Source: Pseudomonadota bacterium (GTDB lineage Bacteria; Pseudomonadota; Gammaproteobacteria; Pseudomonadales; Moraxellaceae). Taken from it: a stretch of DNA of 37,956 bases. Positions 3,817 to 16,461 of this stretch are shown piece by piece; the first letter of the stretch is position 1, and every line of letters begins with the position of its first letter. The notes below the pieces were generated by a model. That model did not search any database. It worked only from the letters and a program-made list of their open reading frames with translations, and was not told the DNA's origin. The stretch is taken from the NCBI GenBank assembly GCA_963204705.1, contig CAUJHL010000059.1:1-37956 (forward strand), given 5' to 3'. The position numbers were made by a program, and so were the translations under genes.

Positions 3817-4403
3817 GATAATTCTCCAGATATTGGGACTAAAAAGTGTACTAAATCAGTTGGGCTATTCTTTTGCTCAATCCGAAGATTTTACTTAACA
3901 ATAGATTTCAACTGTGACACTGGTTAGCCATAAAGACTTAGGGTAAGGTAGTTTAAAAAACAGTCGATAGATAATTCACTATGAATAGTTTTTAATGAGT
4001 AGCATTAAATCCTATCCGGTGTTGAATCATTCAACGTCTGCCGATGAGTTCAGAATACCGAATTCAACTTTTTCTGCTGTGAGGCTTGAGTTACGGATTA
4101 TGCCACTTGGTTTATTTTAGGGCATGGAGGATACAGACAGTGTCTTTTGTAAAATGATGCGGTAATTGGTTTTAAGCTTATGTTCTATAATAATTTTTAG
4201 TGTAAATTGTTCGTTAAGTCTTAGCTTGCGACGTCATTTTTAGAAGTAACATCTTATACACGGCTTAACGTGATGGGACAGTCTGTTACGCGAATTCTTG
4301 CAAACAAGACTGTTGAAAGCGGTCAGTCGACATGTTGAGAGCGTCTTAGTGAAACCTGACGAATTCCAGGGGACTGATTTATACTGAATCCCACTTCGAC
4401 GCT

Positions 4404-4862
4404 TTGGACGCTGTCATGTTGCGACCCCACTTCTGGGACCATTACCCGCTGGATGAACTCACAAAAGAGGAATGGGAGGGGCTTTGTGACGGCTGTGGGC
4501 AATGCTGCCTGATTAAACTGGAGGATGAGGATACAGGCCGGATAGCTTACACGCAGCTGGCGTGTAAATTGCTTGATTGCGGAACGGGTTTATGCAGTAA
4601 CTATGGTCAGCGTCAGGAATTTGTTCCCGATTGCATACAGCTTGCTCCACACATGGTCTCACAGTTGACCTGGTTACCTGCCAGTTGTGCCTATCGACGG
4701 ATTCATGAAGGCCGGGGTCTTGCGAGCTGGCATCCCTTGATCTCAGGACATCGGGAGTCGGTTCGCCATGCCGGTAAGTCTGTCGCGGGACGCTGCCGGA
4801 CGGAAGTTGGAGTCGATGAGGAGGATTGGGATCGCTACATCGTGCGCTGGGTAAAGCAATAG
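4404..4862 (+). CDS. YcgN family cysteine cluster protein (UPF0260)
   Basis: LCDGCGQCCLIKLEDEDTGRIAYTQLACKLLD ... SCAYRRIHEGRGLASWHPL. The listed start is TTG; ATG at 4416 is an alternative. Confidence 0.9.
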   Translation: MDAVMLRPHFWDHYPLDELTKEEWEGLCDGCGQCCLIKLEDEDTGRIAYTQLACKLLDCGTGLCSNYGQRQEFVPDCIQLAPHMVSQLTWLPASCAYRRIHEGRGLASWHPLISGHRESVRHAGKSVAGRCRTEVGVDEEDWDRYIVRWVKQ

Positions 4863-5309
4863 CAGCGTTTTTTTAATGACTAATCCTTGCGCTATTACAG
4901 TTGATCAATTAATAAACAAAAAAATGAACGCCTGTATAAAATACCATTGGTCGGAATGGTATTTAAACAACGAGCGTATTTAAACCTGTAAAAATGGCCT
5001 GAATTCACAATTTTATTTGGGGATATTGATAATAATTGACATTATAAAACAATAACTTAAATAATAAAGTCGGAATTTGTCAATAATAATTGTGGAGGTG
5101 ATTGGCTGGGACTGTAGTCTAGCCGTAATTAATTCGTCTAATCGTGTATTTATTATGAAATATGGGCGTGTTAGTGTCTCTTCATCGTAGACGCTTACCG
5201 ATTGCACGCGGCCAGATCAGCAGAAGTTTGCAGGACATCTGACTGACAGAAAAAAGCGTTTATTTTATGGATTTCCCTGATCCCTAATGCCTTTTGGCAG
5301 GAACCGACT

Positions 5310-6329
5310 ATGAAAAAAATTGCGTATGGCCTGATGACTGCAACCACCCTGTTGATGGGTGCGATGGATGCGAATGCGTTCAGTCAGGAAACCCACCGCC
5401 GTATTGCGATGGATGCCGTGAATTATATGAAAGCCAATCCATCGACCACTAATTACGCCAAACTGCTGGCAGGTGCGACCGCAGCGGGTTATAGCATTAA
5501 TCAGTTCGCTACTGCGCTGGGTCAGGGTGCCTACGATGTGGATGACTTTGCCGATACCTATTTCTGCGGTGCTTCTACCGGTAGCTGCGTACTGGCTCCA
5601 GTATGGGGTGCCGGTTCAGGCATCGTGAAATACACCTCGTACTGGCATTTTCAGAACCAGACTCAGGGTGCCGACGTACACGGCAACGACTTTGGTGGCT
5701 ATAACTATGCCAAGCTGACCGTCTGGGGCGATATCGACAATATGGCCGCTTCCTGGCTGTATGGCGATTATCTCGATGACGGCAAAGGCAATATGAAAGG
5801 CTGGTTCGGTGACAGCACCAAATACAATGCTTATGACCTGACCGAAGCCCATTATCGCCTGGGTGGCTACTCCACCCGCAGCATGTACGCTGACTTTGAA
5901 GCCATGCCATTTCAGCCCATCGATAACCTGGGTCAATACTGGTTTCAGCAATTCCTGAGTGCCCCAACCGTTCAGACACTGGGCTTTGTGCTGCACACGA
6001 CGGATCTGCTGCAGCCTCACCACGTCTGGACCACTTCGGCCCTGAACCACGCTGGCTGGGAAGGCTGGGTAACCGATCATTACGATAGCCTTGCGCTGAA
6101 TGACCAGAGCAAAGTCACTGCCGCTCTGAATGACCTGACTCCACTCACCGCGACTGCTACAGACATTCGCCCACTGCTGACCCAGGGCGGAACGATTGCC
6201 TACACCCAGGGTGGTATCGTGCTGTCCAGTACGGATGATGCCGACCGTACCCGCGTGGCCAATGTGGTGATTCCTCATGCGATTGCCATGGCAGTGCGTG
6301 TGCTGAATCGTGCAGCAGAGCGTTTCTAA
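5310..6329 (+). CDS. Secreted protein resembling the zinc-dependent phospholipase C / S1-P1 nuclease fold
   Basis: Signal peptide (..MDANA), FSQETHRRIAMDAV at the mature N-terminus, central HTTDLLQPHHVWTTSALNHAGWEGWVTDHYD resembling the H..D..QP.H...H..E..V.....D metal-site pattern. Confidence 0.6.
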   Translation: MKKIAYGLMTATTLLMGAMDANAFSQETHRRIAMDAVNYMKANPSTTNYAKLLAGATAAGYSINQFATALGQGAYDVDDFADTYFCGASTGSCVLAPVWGAGSGIVKYTSYWHFQNQTQGADVHGNDFGGYNYAKLTVWGDIDNMAASWLYGDYLDDGKGNMKGWFGDSTKYNAYDLTEAHYRLGGYSTRSMYADFEAMPFQPIDNLGQYWFQQFLSAPTVQTLGFVLHTTDLLQPHHVWTTSALNHAGWEGWVTDHYDSLALNDQSKVTAALNDLTPLTATATDIRPLLTQGGTIAYTQGGIVLSSTDDADRTRVANVVIPHAIAMAVRVLNRAAERF

Positions 6330-10342: not shown

Positions 10343-11566
10343 TCAGGCTAAACCGTCCGGTCTGGGCGAGCTCAGGATACCGGCATAGCGCCAGCAGTAG
10401 AGCCCAAACGCCATAACCCACAGGCCCATACTCAGGGCAATCCCAACAGTCCAGGGCAGCCCACTCGCCGCCGTTAGTACCCGAATCACCGCACACAGCA
10501 CGATCAGGAAAAACGCCAGCGCCATCCCTGCAGGTAACTGCAGTGTTCTGCCGGTATGACCAAGGCTTACCCGGCTAATCACCCCCAGAATCAGCGCAGC
10601 CGCGGCACCGATGGCAATCAGGTGAATCCAGATCAGCGGAGACCACCAGCCCAGCAAGCCACCGGCCATGACCAGCCAGCCCGCGCTGATCATAAGCTGG
10701 GGCAGGTGCAGTATCCACAGCAAGGGCTCTTGCCGGATGCGCCAGCCTTGCCAGCGAATCACCCGCACACCACTGAGGACGCCCAGCACTGCCGCAAGAC
10801 CAGCACTGAGCAAGGGCACAGACACCAGCATAGGCATGAGCATACTGGCTGCCAGCGCCATACCGCCTGCAATGAGGGCTTTCTCCAGCGCTGGAATCGG
10901 CTGGATCTGGGCTTCATTGGGAGCCAGTTGCTGCTTCATGCGCAGCCAGTTGTATGAAAATGATGGAGTAATCCGCCCCCCGATCACCAGCATCAGGACG
11001 CAGAGCAGGGTCAGCGCTGCATGGGCAAACCGCAGTTGCTGGGTGACTAACAAGCCTGCCTGAAAGAGCCAGTACACGGTCAACACAACCAGGATGATCA
11101 GATGCCGGCTTTGCTTTTTGGCATAAATGCGCCGGCCGGCATCCCAGGCCACCAGCGGCAAAAAGGCCAGCTCTATCCCAGCCACCAGCCAGAAGGGGAG
11201 GCTGCTGCCACAGAGGAGCACGATCCGGCCTGCCAGCCACACACTCCATAGCCCCACCAAAGGCCAGCCGTGGAGGCGAATGGTGCCTGTCCAGACACAC
11301 ACCGCCGTTAACAAAAAGCCCGCAATGGCCGCAGGCACCCAGCCAAACAGCATTTCATGGGCATGCCAGACCACTGGCGTCACCGCGAGCGCAGGCTGAA
11401 TCCAGTGAAAGAGGATCGACCACCACAAGGGGATAATGGCGATGGCCATAACCCCCAGCGACAGGAAAAAAATCCGGAAGGGGTAGCTCATCAGCCAGTG
11501 CCAGCGACTGGCATCGGTGGGTAATGACGGGGGGCGATCCTGAATCTGCATGACACACACTGCCAA
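10343..11566 (-). CDS. nnrS: NnrS family protein
   Basis: Polytopic protein with WHAHEMLFGWVPAAIAGFLLTAVCVWTG, GGRITPSFSYNWLR and HTGR, characteristic of NnrS. Confidence 0.92.
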   Translation of the reverse strand: MAVCVMQIQDRPPSLPTDASRWHWLMSYPFRIFFLSLGVMAIAIIPLWWSILFHWIQPALAVTPVVWHAHEMLFGWVPAAIAGFLLTAVCVWTGTIRLHGWPLVGLWSVWLAGRIVLLCGSSLPFWLVAGIELAFLPLVAWDAGRRIYAKKQSRHLIILVVLTVYWLFQAGLLVTQQLRFAHAALTLLCVLMLVIGGRITPSFSYNWLRMKQQLAPNEAQIQPIPALEKALIAGGMALAASMLMPMLVSVPLLSAGLAAVLGVLSGVRVIRWQGWRIRQEPLLWILHLPQLMISAGWLVMAGGLLGWWSPLIWIHLIAIGAAAALILGVISRVSLGHTGRTLQLPAGMALAFFLIVLCAVIRVLTAASGLPWTVGIALSMGLWVMAFGLYCWRYAGILSSPRPDGLA

Positions 11567-11760: not shown

Positions 11761-11799
11761 AAGAGAAAACCCGCCCATTATCATCCAGATAGAGCGGGT
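11761..11799 (-). terminator. Rho-independent terminator of the Rsm-like sRNA
   Basis: ACCCGCTC-TATC-TGGAT-GATA-AT-GGGCGGGT followed by TTTTCTCTT on the minus strand. Confidence 0.85.
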
Positions 11800-11925
11800 C
11801 TCAGTTCAACGTCCTGTTGATGCATCCTTACAGCTCATTATCCATCCGAATAATTCGCTTTGTCTTCCTACGGCAGTCCTTCCTTCGGGTCATCCTGACC
11901 GACTTCCTTGTGCCGTGAAAGAATA
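11761..11925 (-). ncRNA. RsmX/Y/Z (CsrB)-type CsrA-sequestering small RNA; 5' end approximate
   Basis: Ten GGA motifs (TCC on + at 11784, 11812, 11825, 11841, 11845, 11866, 11877, 11881, 11893, 11905). Five hairpins with GGA in the loop: 11888-11900, 11837-11854, 11821-11832, 11806-11820 and terminator 11769-11799. Confidence 0.82.
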
Positions 11926-11972
11926 ATCACATTTTTTACCGAGCAGATACAGACGGCAAACACCTCAGTTAC

Positions 11973-11990
11973 TGTACGTTTTGGCTTACA
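11973..11990 (-). promoter_or_regulatory. GacA-box-like upstream activating sequence
   Basis: Minus strand TGTAAG-CCAAAA-CGTACA versus Pseudomonas GacA consensus TGTAAG-N6-CTTACA: one mismatch in 12 specified positions, about 60 bp before the predicted sRNA start. Confidence 0.72.
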
Positions 11991-12013: not shown

Positions 12014-13492
12014 TCAGCTTTTACGGCGTGCCATACGGGGAATGTTCAGCCGTTGACGCTTCTCCCAGAGGGTTTTACGACTGATGCCTAGTGCTTCGGC
12101 CAGTTGGGTTTCGGTCATACCGGTTTCTAATTGGCGTACCGTCTGGATAAATTGTTGTTCCAGCAAATTACTGCCGGCGGGCAAATCCGCCAGCGAGTCC
12201 GGCAACAAGGCTGGGGGTGGAGTGTTGTGATGACCATTCGGAGCCGGGGTAGGTGATGCAGGAGTCGAAATGCCTGTTGGGCTGTGAGTGGAGGATAGAA
12301 AGGTCTGTCCATCGGTCAGCATGGCATAGGTCTGTCGGGGATGCTCCTCCACGGTATCCGGAATGCGGATCAGTTCTGGACCTATGCGGCCACCTTTGCA
12401 CATGATCACGGCATATTCCAGCACGTTTTGCAGTTCGCGCACATTACCGGGCCAGCTATGGCGACTGAGGCGCTGCGAGGCTTCAATGGACAGCCCTGGG
12501 CAGCTTTTCCGGTGCTTCTCACAAAATTGCTGAATGAGCTGATTGGCCAGCAGCAGCAGATCATCTCCCCGCTGGCGCAAGGGCGGGAGCAGTAGGGAGA
12601 CCACATGCAGGCGAAAATACAAATCCGCCCGGAACTTGCCTTCACGTACCATTTGTTCCAGATTGCGGTGCGTTGCCGCAATCAGTCGGATATCGACCCG
12701 GCGGGTTTCATGGGTACCCAGACGGCGGATTTCACGTTCCTGAAGCAAGCGCAATAAGCGTGCCTGTGCTTCCAGAGGCAGCTCGCCGATTTCATCCAGA
12801 AAAAGCGTCCCCTGATCGGCTGCTTCCACCAGCCCTTTACGTAAGGTATTAGCACCGGTAAAGGCGCCTTTTTCATGGCCAAAGAGTTCATCTTCCATCA
12901 GGCTGTCTGGAATGGCAGCACAATTGACGGCAATCCACGGCTGTGTGGCACGGGGACTGAGCTGATGCAGGGCTCTGGCAACCAGTTCCTTGCCGGTACC
13001 CGACTCACCCAGGACCAGTACGGTGGCGTCCAGAGGCGCGACGGTCCGCATGTCGTCGAAAAGTTTCAACATACTGGGTGAGTTGCTGATCATGCCCATG
13101 TGGTGTTGAGGAGCTGATTCATTAGAAAAATTGGGCAAGGGATTCAGGCGCGACAGGGCACTCTCGATCGCCAGCAATAATTCCTGATGATCAAAGGGTT
13201 TGATCAAATAATGAACAGCGCCATTGCGCATGGCTTCAACGGCATCACGCGTGTCACTGTAACTGGTCATGATGAGTACAGGAACGGGCCGGGCCCGATC
13301 GATCAGCACTGTCCCCAGCTCGCCAGGGAGGCGGACATCGGAAACGATCAGGTCAAACCTGTGCAGGCCAAGGGCTTCGGCAGCCGCCACAGAGTCGGCT
13401 TCGGTAACGTTGTAGCCATGCCGATTCAGCAGTTTCAGCAAATTTTGGCGAATGAGCGGCTCGTCTTCTACGACAAGTAATTGCGCCGTCAT
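12014..13492 (-). CDS. cbrB: Sigma-54-dependent response regulator, CbrB-like
   Basis: REC domain (VSDVRLPG), AAA+ domain (GESGTGKELVARALH, GAFTGA), C-terminal Fis-type HTH. Adjacent to CbrA and in conserved order with cbrX/gluQ/dksA. Confidence 0.92.
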   Translation of the reverse strand: MTAQLLVVEDEPLIRQNLLKLLNRHGYNVTEADSVAAAEALGLHRFDLIVSDVRLPGELGTVLIDRARPVPVLIMTSYSDTRDAVEAMRNGAVHYLIKPFDHQELLLAIESALSRLNPLPNFSNESAPQHHMGMISNSPSMLKLFDDMRTVAPLDATVLVLGESGTGKELVARALHQLSPRATQPWIAVNCAAIPDSLMEDELFGHEKGAFTGANTLRKGLVEAADQGTLFLDEIGELPLEAQARLLRLLQEREIRRLGTHETRRVDIRLIAATHRNLEQMVREGKFRADLYFRLHVVSLLLPPLRQRGDDLLLLANQLIQQFCEKHRKSCPGLSIEASQRLSRHSWPGNVRELQNVLEYAVIMCKGGRIGPELIRIPDTVEEHPRQTYAMLTDGQTFLSSTHSPTGISTPASPTPAPNGHHNTPPPALLPDSLADLPAGSNLLEQQFIQTVRQLETGMTETQLAEALGISRKTLWEKRQRLNIPRMARRKS

Positions 13493-13500
13493 GGGGTCTC

Positions 13501-16461
13501 CTATGGCATGGGTGCTCGCGGAATACTAAAGTGCACCACGACGCCTTGCCCCTGATTGTAAGCTTGTTTATCGATAAGTTGTATATCCCCGCCGTGACTG
13601 CGAATAATCCCCTGCACCAGTGACAAGCCCAGTCCGGTACCCTGGCCTACTGGTTTGGTGGTGACAAAGGGGTCAAACAAAGTGTCTTTTTTGGCATTGT
13701 TGGGCAAGCCGATACCATCATCTTCGACTTCCACGTGCACCATATCCTCCTGAGTCGAGGCGCTGACGTGAATGCGAACAGGATGAAGATTGGGCAAGTC
13801 CTCGCGGGACTCAGTGGCATCTATCGCATTACTGAGCAAATTGACAAACACCTGGTTCAGCTGGTGGACATAGCCAAAGACATACAGGTCACGATCTACG
13901 GCATTGATCAGTTGCAGGGGCAATCGGCGTCCGAGCCGGATCAGCTGAAAGGATTCTGCGACGACCTGATGCAGATTCAGGGCCTGCCGGAAATCCTGAT
14001 CGGTTTTATCAGTGCGAGCATAGCCGACGAGTGCGCTGACGATACGCCGGATGCGATCGGTTTGCTGCAAGATTTGCTGCGAAGAATCCTGGATTTCTGG
14101 GTCAGCAAAGTCGGCTTCCAGATTTTGGGCGATTCCCGCGATACCGGTCACGGGGTTGCCGATTTCATGCGCCACGCCGGCAACCAGTCGCCCAATATCC
14201 GCTAGTCGTTCCTGATGCCGTAACTGGGATTCCAGCTCTGTTACCTGAGTAATGTCTTCCAGAATCAGGACTTGTTGAGCCTGAGACTGGCCTTCGACAT
14301 TTCCTACCGTGGACTTTTGCAGATTAAACAGACGGGTTTTATGGTTGACCTCCGCATGTTGCCGGTACCATTGAGGTTTTTCCTGTGTGGCAAATCCCAA
14401 CAGGAGGGGGCCCCAGGGCGCTGGCAGGTTGCCAAGATACCATCCTATGACATCTTCGTTAAACCCAGTCAGTTCCGTCATTGCACGGTTCCAGCCTATG
14501 ACGGCCAGACTGGCATCCACGGAGCACACCCCAATCGGCAATTCATACAACGTCTGACGATGAAAGCGCCGGAGTTCATCCAGTTCCGCAGCGGTACCGA
14601 CGAGCGGATAGCGTGCGGTTTCTTTATCCAGTTCCTGTTCACGGCTGTGGCGTAACATGCTGTCCGGCAGATTGGCGGTTGCCTGATAGGGCAGGGCGCG
14701 ATCCATCAGGTGCTGTGCCAGGGCCGGCCCAAGCACTGCAGATAAATTAAACAGAATCCGCTCACGCAACTGGATCAGCTTGGGACCACTTTGTTCTTCA
14801 CGGCTAAATTCCAGCTCCTGCAAAGCGCGAGTCACTTGCTGTAGCGCAATCCGCCGCCCCAGTTGTTGGGTCAGAGCGCGCTCCAGTTCCTCTATGGAGG
14901 TGATGGTCAATGACCAATGAGTGGTCGGCCCAGGCTGCAGTGCATTGAACAGGCTGCATTCCCGTGCCCGGGCGATTTCCTGCAAGGACTGCGGCCAGGC
15001 CAGCGAGCCAGCAATCAGCCCCAGAATGGAAAGCAGCACAGTCAGTACCAGCAGCTGATTATGGTGATCGTTCTCAAACCATTGATTAAGCGACTGCTCA
15101 TCCATGATGGCAAAGGGGAGCATCTGCAGTAGTATCCAGCAGGTCAGCCCCAGCATCAGGCTAAAAATAGCTCCCTTGGCATTGGCTCTGGACCAAAACA
15201 AGGCACCCACAAAGTTAGGCAAAATCACCATCAATCCGGTAAACAGCAGCTTGCTGATCCGATCGGCAGGCTGTTCACGGATGAGAAAATACACTCCCGC
15301 CACCAGTACAGACAGCAACAGCATCAGGCCATATTTGCGCCGTTTGACGTAATCGGTCAGCTGTTCACGCTGATGGCTGGGTTTATAAAATCCCACCAGC
15401 AAATGACTAAAGGTCATACCGGATACATTGTGCAGGCTAAGCATTAACACACTTGAAATCGCTGATAAAACCGCCAGAAAATAAAAGAGATTGAGCCATC
15501 CCTGATGAAAATAGGTGGTGATCGCAGGCAAAATGGGCACTCTATCCGGCGAGAATCCACTGGCCAGAGCACTCCACAGGATCAATGGAATCACCACCAG
15601 CAGTGGCGTAAACAGCAGGGGAACCCCCCATTGGGCTGTGTTCAGTTCGGTAGGCCGGGTATTTTCAACAAAGACGCTTTGAAAAATGTGAGGCATGACT
15701 AGTGTGGCCAAGCCAAAAATCAGCACGTTAAATTCCCATACCCCACTCTGTAAGGGTTGAAACAGCGCGTGTGTCATCTCGGGGTGATGCGCCAGCCATT
15801 GGTGAAAGTGGGACCAGCCGCCAAAGATGCCCCATAGGCAAAAACCCGCCAAGACAAAAAGAAAGGCCATTTTCACTAAACACTGAAATGCCACCACCAG
15901 CATCAGCGGTTTATTGCTGGAGTATTCGAACAGGCCAATATCATGATGGAGAAACATGAGAAGGCAAATCACCGTACTATAGATCAGCAGGGTTTCAAAC
16001 CTGCCACCGCCAAAGAGCGCCAGAACCTGCTCCAGCGCCATTAATTGCAAGGCCAGAATCAGAATCGTCACCAGCAGGAGTATCAGCGTAACCACGCCCC
16101 CCAGTAGGCGGCTCTGAAATCGGAATGCCATTAGATCGGCCAGTGAGTGCAGCTGATGGGTTTTTACCAACCGCAGCATGGGAGCGATCAAAATCGGGGC
16201 AATTAAAAACAACAGGCCCAGACCCAAATACAGCTTGGTAAAATTAAAACCGTAGTGATAGGCATAGTTGGGCATAATGACCAGCATCCAGCCACCCAGC
16301 CCGGCGGTACATCCCAGCACATAAATAATTGGGCCATGTAACAGACGCCGGAGGAAATTACCGCGTGATGCCCAGACCGCCAGTAGCCCCAGCAATGCGG
16401 TATACACTACCGACAACAGGAGAGGCCAGTTGAACGTCATGGATGCCTGTAGGGAATCCAT
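13501..16461 (-). CDS. cbrA: Sensor histidine kinase with N-terminal SLC5/sodium:solute symporter domain, CbrA-like
   Basis: ~13 hydrophobic segments, PAS-like region, H-box VAGVAHEIGNPVTGIAGIAQNLE, N-box VNLLSNAIDA, G-box GQGTGLGLSLVQGII. Confidence 0.93.
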   Translation of the reverse strand: MDSLQASMTFNWPLLLSVVYTALLGLLAVWASRGNFLRRLLHGPIIYVLGCTAGLGGWMLVIMPNYAYHYGFNFTKLYLGLGLLFLIAPILIAPMLRLVKTHQLHSLADLMAFRFQSRLLGGVVTLILLLVTILILALQLMALEQVLALFGGGRFETLLIYSTVICLLMFLHHDIGLFEYSSNKPLMLVVAFQCLVKMAFLFVLAGFCLWGIFGGWSHFHQWLAHHPEMTHALFQPLQSGVWEFNVLIFGLATLVMPHIFQSVFVENTRPTELNTAQWGVPLLFTPLLVVIPLILWSALASGFSPDRVPILPAITTYFHQGWLNLFYFLAVLSAISSVLMLSLHNVSGMTFSHLLVGFYKPSHQREQLTDYVKRRKYGLMLLLSVLVAGVYFLIREQPADRISKLLFTGLMVILPNFVGALFWSRANAKGAIFSLMLGLTCWILLQMLPFAIMDEQSLNQWFENDHHNQLLVLTVLLSILGLIAGSLAWPQSLQEIARARECSLFNALQPGPTTHWSLTITSIEELERALTQQLGRRIALQQVTRALQELEFSREEQSGPKLIQLRERILFNLSAVLGPALAQHLMDRALPYQATANLPDSMLRHSREQELDKETARYPLVGTAAELDELRRFHRQTLYELPIGVCSVDASLAVIGWNRAMTELTGFNEDVIGWYLGNLPAPWGPLLLGFATQEKPQWYRQHAEVNHKTRLFNLQKSTVGNVEGQSQAQQVLILEDITQVTELESQLRHQERLADIGRLVAGVAHEIGNPVTGIAGIAQNLEADFADPEIQDSSQQILQQTDRIRRIVSALVGYARTDKTDQDFRQALNLHQVVAESFQLIRLGRRLPLQLINAVDRDLYVFGYVHQLNQVFVNLLSNAIDATESREDLPNLHPVRIHVSASTQEDMVHVEVEDDGIGLPNNAKKDTLFDPFVTTKPVGQGTGLGLSLVQGIIRSHGGDIQLIDKQAYNQGQGVVVHFSIPRAPMP

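Follow-up and report, generated by a model that had tools for sequence, protein, structure and literature searches.

In Acinetobacter baumannii, GacSA is a global regulator (674 genes; PMC5295007) and CsrA is needed for growth on rich media (PMC12802169). The available Acinetobacter literature names no validated RNA that links GacSA to CsrA, and no sRNA is mentioned anywhere in the main text of a 2025 GacSA study. CsrA-decoy RNAs have been predicted computationally in A. baylyi ADP1 (Kulkarni 2006, as cited in PMC5568370, Table 2), and a CsrB-like RNA is cited from the same source in PMC12442408. For rsmY of Pseudomonas aeruginosa, a GacA site has been reported at -75 (PMC4950607).

Here we describe a small RNA gene in a member of the Moraxellaceae that very probably encodes a Gac-controlled, Rsm/Csr-type decoy for CsrA. 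The whole stretch of DNA that was analysed (37,956 nt, hereafter the window) corresponds to contig C59 in a 2.4-Mb genome that is 99.5% complete.

The RNA gene and its neighbours

The predicted RNA lies on the minus strand, as do the genes on its two sides:

11761..11918, minus strand: predicted Rsm/Csr-type small RNA, about 155 nt (matches to models R1 and R2, copies in the genome, covariation on 34 copies)
12014..13492, minus strand: cbrB-like gene for a sigma-54-dependent response regulator, upstream neighbour (Pfam Response_reg and Sigma54_activat)
10343..11566, minus strand: nnrS, downstream neighbour (Pfam NnrS, E = 3e-91)

The sigma-54 regulator is identified as CbrB by context, together with a CbrA-like gene (13501-16461) that encodes SSF and histidine kinase domains (Pfam).

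The preliminary description of this DNA had reported ten GGA triplets in about 125 nt of the minus strand. Counting bears this out: the ten triplets, with starts between 11907 and 11786, are the maximum per 125 nt for both strands of the window, against a minus-strand mean of 1.70 (sd 1.38). Dinucleotide shuffles of the whole window (60) gave a mean maximum of 7.5 GGA, the highest being 9. Shuffling of the RNA by itself gave a weaker result than the whole-window test (10 GGA vs 6.5, P ~0.03), because the RNA is GA-rich. This P is modest, and GGA density alone is therefore not our main argument.

Conserved structure

The minimum-energy fold of the RNA (-48.4 kcal/mol, z = -2.3) contains every hairpin named in the preliminary description, including the outer stem. 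The structural elements are as follows:

11870..11916, minus strand: outer stem ACGGC/GCCGT around hairpin GGTC-AGGAT-GACC (fold and 34-copy alignment)
11837..11854, minus strand: hairpin ATTATTC-GGAT-GGATAAT (double-sided changes at all seven pairs among relatives)
11821..11832, minus strand: hairpin TGTA-AGGA-TGCA (GGA kept in 33 of 34 copies)
11806..11820, minus strand: hairpin TCAAC-AGGAC-GTTGA (GGA kept in 33 of 34 copies)
11761..11801, minus strand: intrinsic terminator: hairpin with a TGGAT loop, and a T-rich tract (helices 8 and 9; loop GGA in 34 of 34 copies)

Alignment with relatives adds covariation to the fold. Across 34 copies (alignment A3), 89.7% of cells pair and 26 of 52 pairs are changed on both sides, counts that lean towards the model, since the rows were aligned to its structure and are related to one another. 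None of 500 shuffles reached the observed values, and pairing collapses to 35-48% when the structure is slid by 1-3 columns. The slide control and the seven-pair covariation of the middle hairpin (11837..11854) are hard to explain without a real structure. The stem of this hairpin also carries a U-A to C-G compensatory change between paralogues of the source genome. The core of the outer stem, CGGC/GCCG, is invariant in all 34 copies, and the inner stem of the hairpin that it encloses has changes on both sides among them.

The terminator proposed in the preliminary description is likewise conserved: 96-99.5% of cells in helices 8 and 9 are paired, and seven pairs are changed on both sides. A simple automated terminator scan nevertheless called none at the RNA. 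A bulge in the stem probably explains this; the GC-rich stem is kept in the aligned copies. One element of the earlier account did not hold, as the loop GGA of the middle hairpin is kept in just 8 of 34 copies and the neighbouring GGA in 4 of 34. These two, in and beside that loop, are the exceptions: each of the other eight GGA is present in 33-34 of the 34 copies, and hairpins with GGA loops are conserved in relatives. GGA held constant while the stems drift is the pattern that would be expected for CsrA sites.

Upstream site and probable promoter

Two further elements were identified between the RNA and cbrB:

11973..11990, minus strand: GacA-box-like upstream activating site, TGTAAGCCAAAACGTACA (one mismatch to TGTAAG-N6-CTTACA)
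11919..11930, minus strand: probable -10 region, GATTAT at 11928-11923, with the start region (no differences among the three near-identical copies)

The 18-bp site, which the preliminary description had missed, lies 72 bp upstream of the predicted start; no other site in the window comes within two mismatches of this consensus, which was taken from PMC4950607. At the position equivalent to GATTAT, relatives have CATTAT or CATAAT. We infer the promoter and start site of the window RNA from these sequences.

All four copies in the genome have the box at -72, with 1-2 mismatches, and it is also kept in the non-Acinetobacter relatives examined. Copies linked to exoIII in Acinetobacter have a degenerate left half of the GacA-like box. 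At four such loci (L061, L065, L073, L082) we observed the right half-box only, often CTTACA, and another inverted repeat, GTGAACA..TGTTCAC, farther upstream. The half box and the extra inverted repeat mean that the exoIII-linked Acinetobacter copies may respond to a different activator or to an altered one. A one-mismatch box at C88:22520-22537 (L034), TGTAAGCCAAAACCTACA, was considered as the mark of a further RNA copy and rejected, as there is no GGA-rich RNA on that strand. This box is of the same sequence type and is possibly a direct GacA target.

Copies in the source genome

The preliminary description knew the RNA from the site after cbrB, which can now be seen as one of several. The genome has at least four copies, three of them near-identical and one diverged. 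A box pattern search and a DNA search identified two copies besides that in the window. The one at C13:6711-6555 (~97% identical over the RNA) is flanked by an outer-membrane efflux gene and by a Rid-family gene that comes after clpB, and that at C146:18978-18822 (also ~97% identical) follows an exonuclease III/Crc-like gene; each has box, promoter and terminator. The diverged copy, C116:4900-4725, scores 74 bits with model R2; a box of its own, TGTACGTTATTTCTTACG, precedes it, again at -72. Identity among the copies begins about the box and ends at the terminator. The RNA is a free-standing gene, in that the whole unit from box to terminator is present at unrelated loci. The C146 site is probably ancestral, because the RNA of Acinetobacter follows the same kind of gene, and the window copy would then be a duplicate.

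Distribution in the Moraxellaceae

A first covariance model, built from the three near-identical genomic copies, detected the RNA in 57 of 149 Moraxellaceae genomes, with E-values down to 1e-25. With a second model, built from 34 copies, it was detected in 81 of 199 genomes of the family, spread over 8 of 16 genera. In many Moraxellaceae genomes, neither model has a match. Apart from family members, an order-wide search of 397 genomes returned two weak matches (29 and 27 bits). Nearly all carriers in a scan of named genomes were Acinetobacter and other Moraxellaceae, among them A. nosocomialis and A. pittii, close relatives of A. baumannii. A pattern match in a Pirellulales bin (L088) is probably due to chance and is not found by the covariance model. 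In the Acinetobacter loci examined, the RNA lies directly after an exoIII/crc-like gene, which is divergent from pyrE.

Some relatives have additional arrangements. Tandem copies of the RNA (1501-1667 and 2075-2248), each with a two-mismatch box, occur in a member of genus g11 (L060). Three Acinetobacter loci (L165, L166, L167; ~1490-1690) encode a second Rsm-like RNA that contains 8-10 GGA; ~73-75 bp upstream of it is a GacA-like box with one mismatch, TGTAAGCAATATCGTACA (TGTAAGCATTATCGTACA in L166). In another Moraxellaceae genus (L115), the RNA is found at 5712, directly after recD (3901-5625).

Laboratory evolution of A. baylyi repeatedly produced mutations in a predicted small RNA that lies between recD and ACIAD0400, alongside mutations in csrA, hfq and rnd (PMC11426457). 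This small RNA may be a CsrA decoy of the same family as the window RNA. The RNA copies of the Moraxellaceae family may also include the ADP1 predictions.

Proposed function

The Rsm/Csr-type reading of the preliminary description is strengthened by the GGA density, the co-varying hairpins, the box at -72, the four paralogues and the presence of CsrA and a GacA-like regulator. The CsrA homologue on which that reading depends is encoded in a single copy (79 aa, above the NCBIfam cut-off). The GacA-like regulator (C146:8499-9125) scores 254.5 bits, compared to 108 for the next paralogue, and does not reach its NCBIfam cut-off (280). There are also GacS-like kinases, again below the NCBIfam cut-off; the best (504.7 bits, C34) lies at a contig end. 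Hfq is also encoded in the genome.

In the mechanism that we predict, the 18-bp site ~72 bp upstream of the start is most likely the target of phosphorylated GacA, which would turn on a sigma-70 promoter of the RNA. The ~155-nt transcript would stop at its own terminator. GGA in the hairpin loops and linkers would bind CsrA dimers, which would be titrated away from their target mRNAs, and the three near-identical copies and the diverged one should act additively. The multiplication of copies suggests a role of dosage, for which rsmX duplications in Pseudomonas provide a parallel (PMC7911923). We infer transcription, GacA dependence, CsrA binding and titration from genome sequence.

It is very unlikely that the RNA is instead a structured RNA unrelated to CsrA (a base-pairing sRNA or an element of the cbrB 3' UTR) in which the GGA are incidental. 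Such a role would suit an RNA that closely follows cbrB in a genome with Hfq, but it would not account for conservation that centres on the GGA while compensatory changes accumulate in the stems, nor for the box and promoter that accompany the RNA at unrelated loci.

The position after cbrB

The site just after cbrB is the expected position of CrcZ, and the window RNA might thus be a CrcZ-type decoy for Hfq/Crc. Arrays of CA motifs (AANAANAA) were identified downstream of cbrB in a number of relatives (L005:3099-3415, L010, L011, L017, L018, L019, L024, L027, L029). Overlapping AANAANAA motifs reach densities of up to 19 per 200 nt in these arrays, some of which lie behind a sigma-54-like promoter (TTGGCACG-N4-TGC-like). 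For one array, the Rfam CrcZ model gave 27 bits (E = 7e-4), short of its cut-off of 95. We regard the arrays as CrcZ-like Hfq decoys.

Lacking in the source genome are AANAANAA motifs within 600 nt downstream of cbrB (zero were found), and no CrcZ-like array was found in the rest of the genome by the pattern used. Rfam has no CrcZ match in the window, and the cbrB slot has no sigma-54 promoter of the relatives' type. Position and orientation of the window RNA do fit CrcZ, some relatives have a CA array there, and Hfq is available as a partner; against these points stand the missing motifs, match and promoter, and the occurrence of the same RNA with its promoter at other loci. We therefore give the CrcZ reading hardly any weight. 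Least credible of all is the reading as a multi-hairpin mobile or repeated element (REP/MITE-like), which three near-identical dispersed copies in one genome might suggest, because there are just these three plus a diverged copy, orthologous copies keep a fixed pyrE-exoIII place in the Acinetobacter loci examined, and the unit has a directional promoter and a terminator and is conserved in length and structure.

If the window RNA is a Gac-controlled CsrA decoy, its location invites a more speculative reading, which we put forward tentatively and think rather unlikely. A decoy swap may have taken place at cbrB: loss of the CrcZ-like Hfq/Crc decoy, and settlement at this site of a CsrA decoy that had been duplicated together with its GacA-controlled promoter, perhaps with some read-through from cbrB in addition. 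Should this be true, carbon-status signalling in the lineage would have been rerouted from Hfq to CsrA. Other close relatives likewise have no CA array after cbrB, and for this reason the loss of CrcZ may precede the arrival of the RNA.

Comparison with known regulatory RNAs

Rfam has no family for the window RNA. At gathering cut-offs there was no match in the window, nor in 13 loci with relatives included, and this holds for the RsmX, RsmY, PrrB_RsmZ, CsrB and CsrC models to which the preliminary description had pointed. The best match of the window RNA, a weak one, is to PrrB_RsmZ (RF00166; 15.6 bits, E = 0.36; gathering cut-off 44). Over 39 relatives, RF00166 gave three weak matches, none above the cut-off, and its matches in control genomes were in unrelated bacteria.

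Csr decoys are expected in a bacterium with Gac and CsrA, which limits the surprise; the value lies in a concrete family that can be tested. The family provides covariance-supported candidates, with loci, for the missing link between GacSA and CsrA across the Moraxellaceae, open to deletion and assay, and it could serve as the seed for a new Rfam family.

The window RNA resembles RsmX, RsmY and RsmZ of Pseudomonas in its similar length, GGA in loops and linkers, terminator, GacA-box-like site ~70 bp upstream and several paralogues per genome. It differs from them in belonging to a distinct sequence family (15.6 vs 44 bits) and in its genomic neighbours, and the box of its family favours TGTAAGC-N5-CGTACA or the reverse. 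With CsrB and CsrC of Enterobacteria it would share the functional principle of CsrA titration, although it is shorter and has fewer GGA. CrcZ (RF01675) has in common with it the position just downstream of cbrB and the decoy principle, whereas the CA motifs for Hfq/Crc and the sigma-54 promoter belong to CrcZ and are absent from the window RNA. The ADP1 predictions concern the same bacterial family and the same proposed function, but they are computational and for one strain, and in the accessible part of the citing text they come without a covariation model or distribution. The kind of RNA is already known; what appears to be new to the available literature is the supported family, together with its paralogues and the copy in the window.
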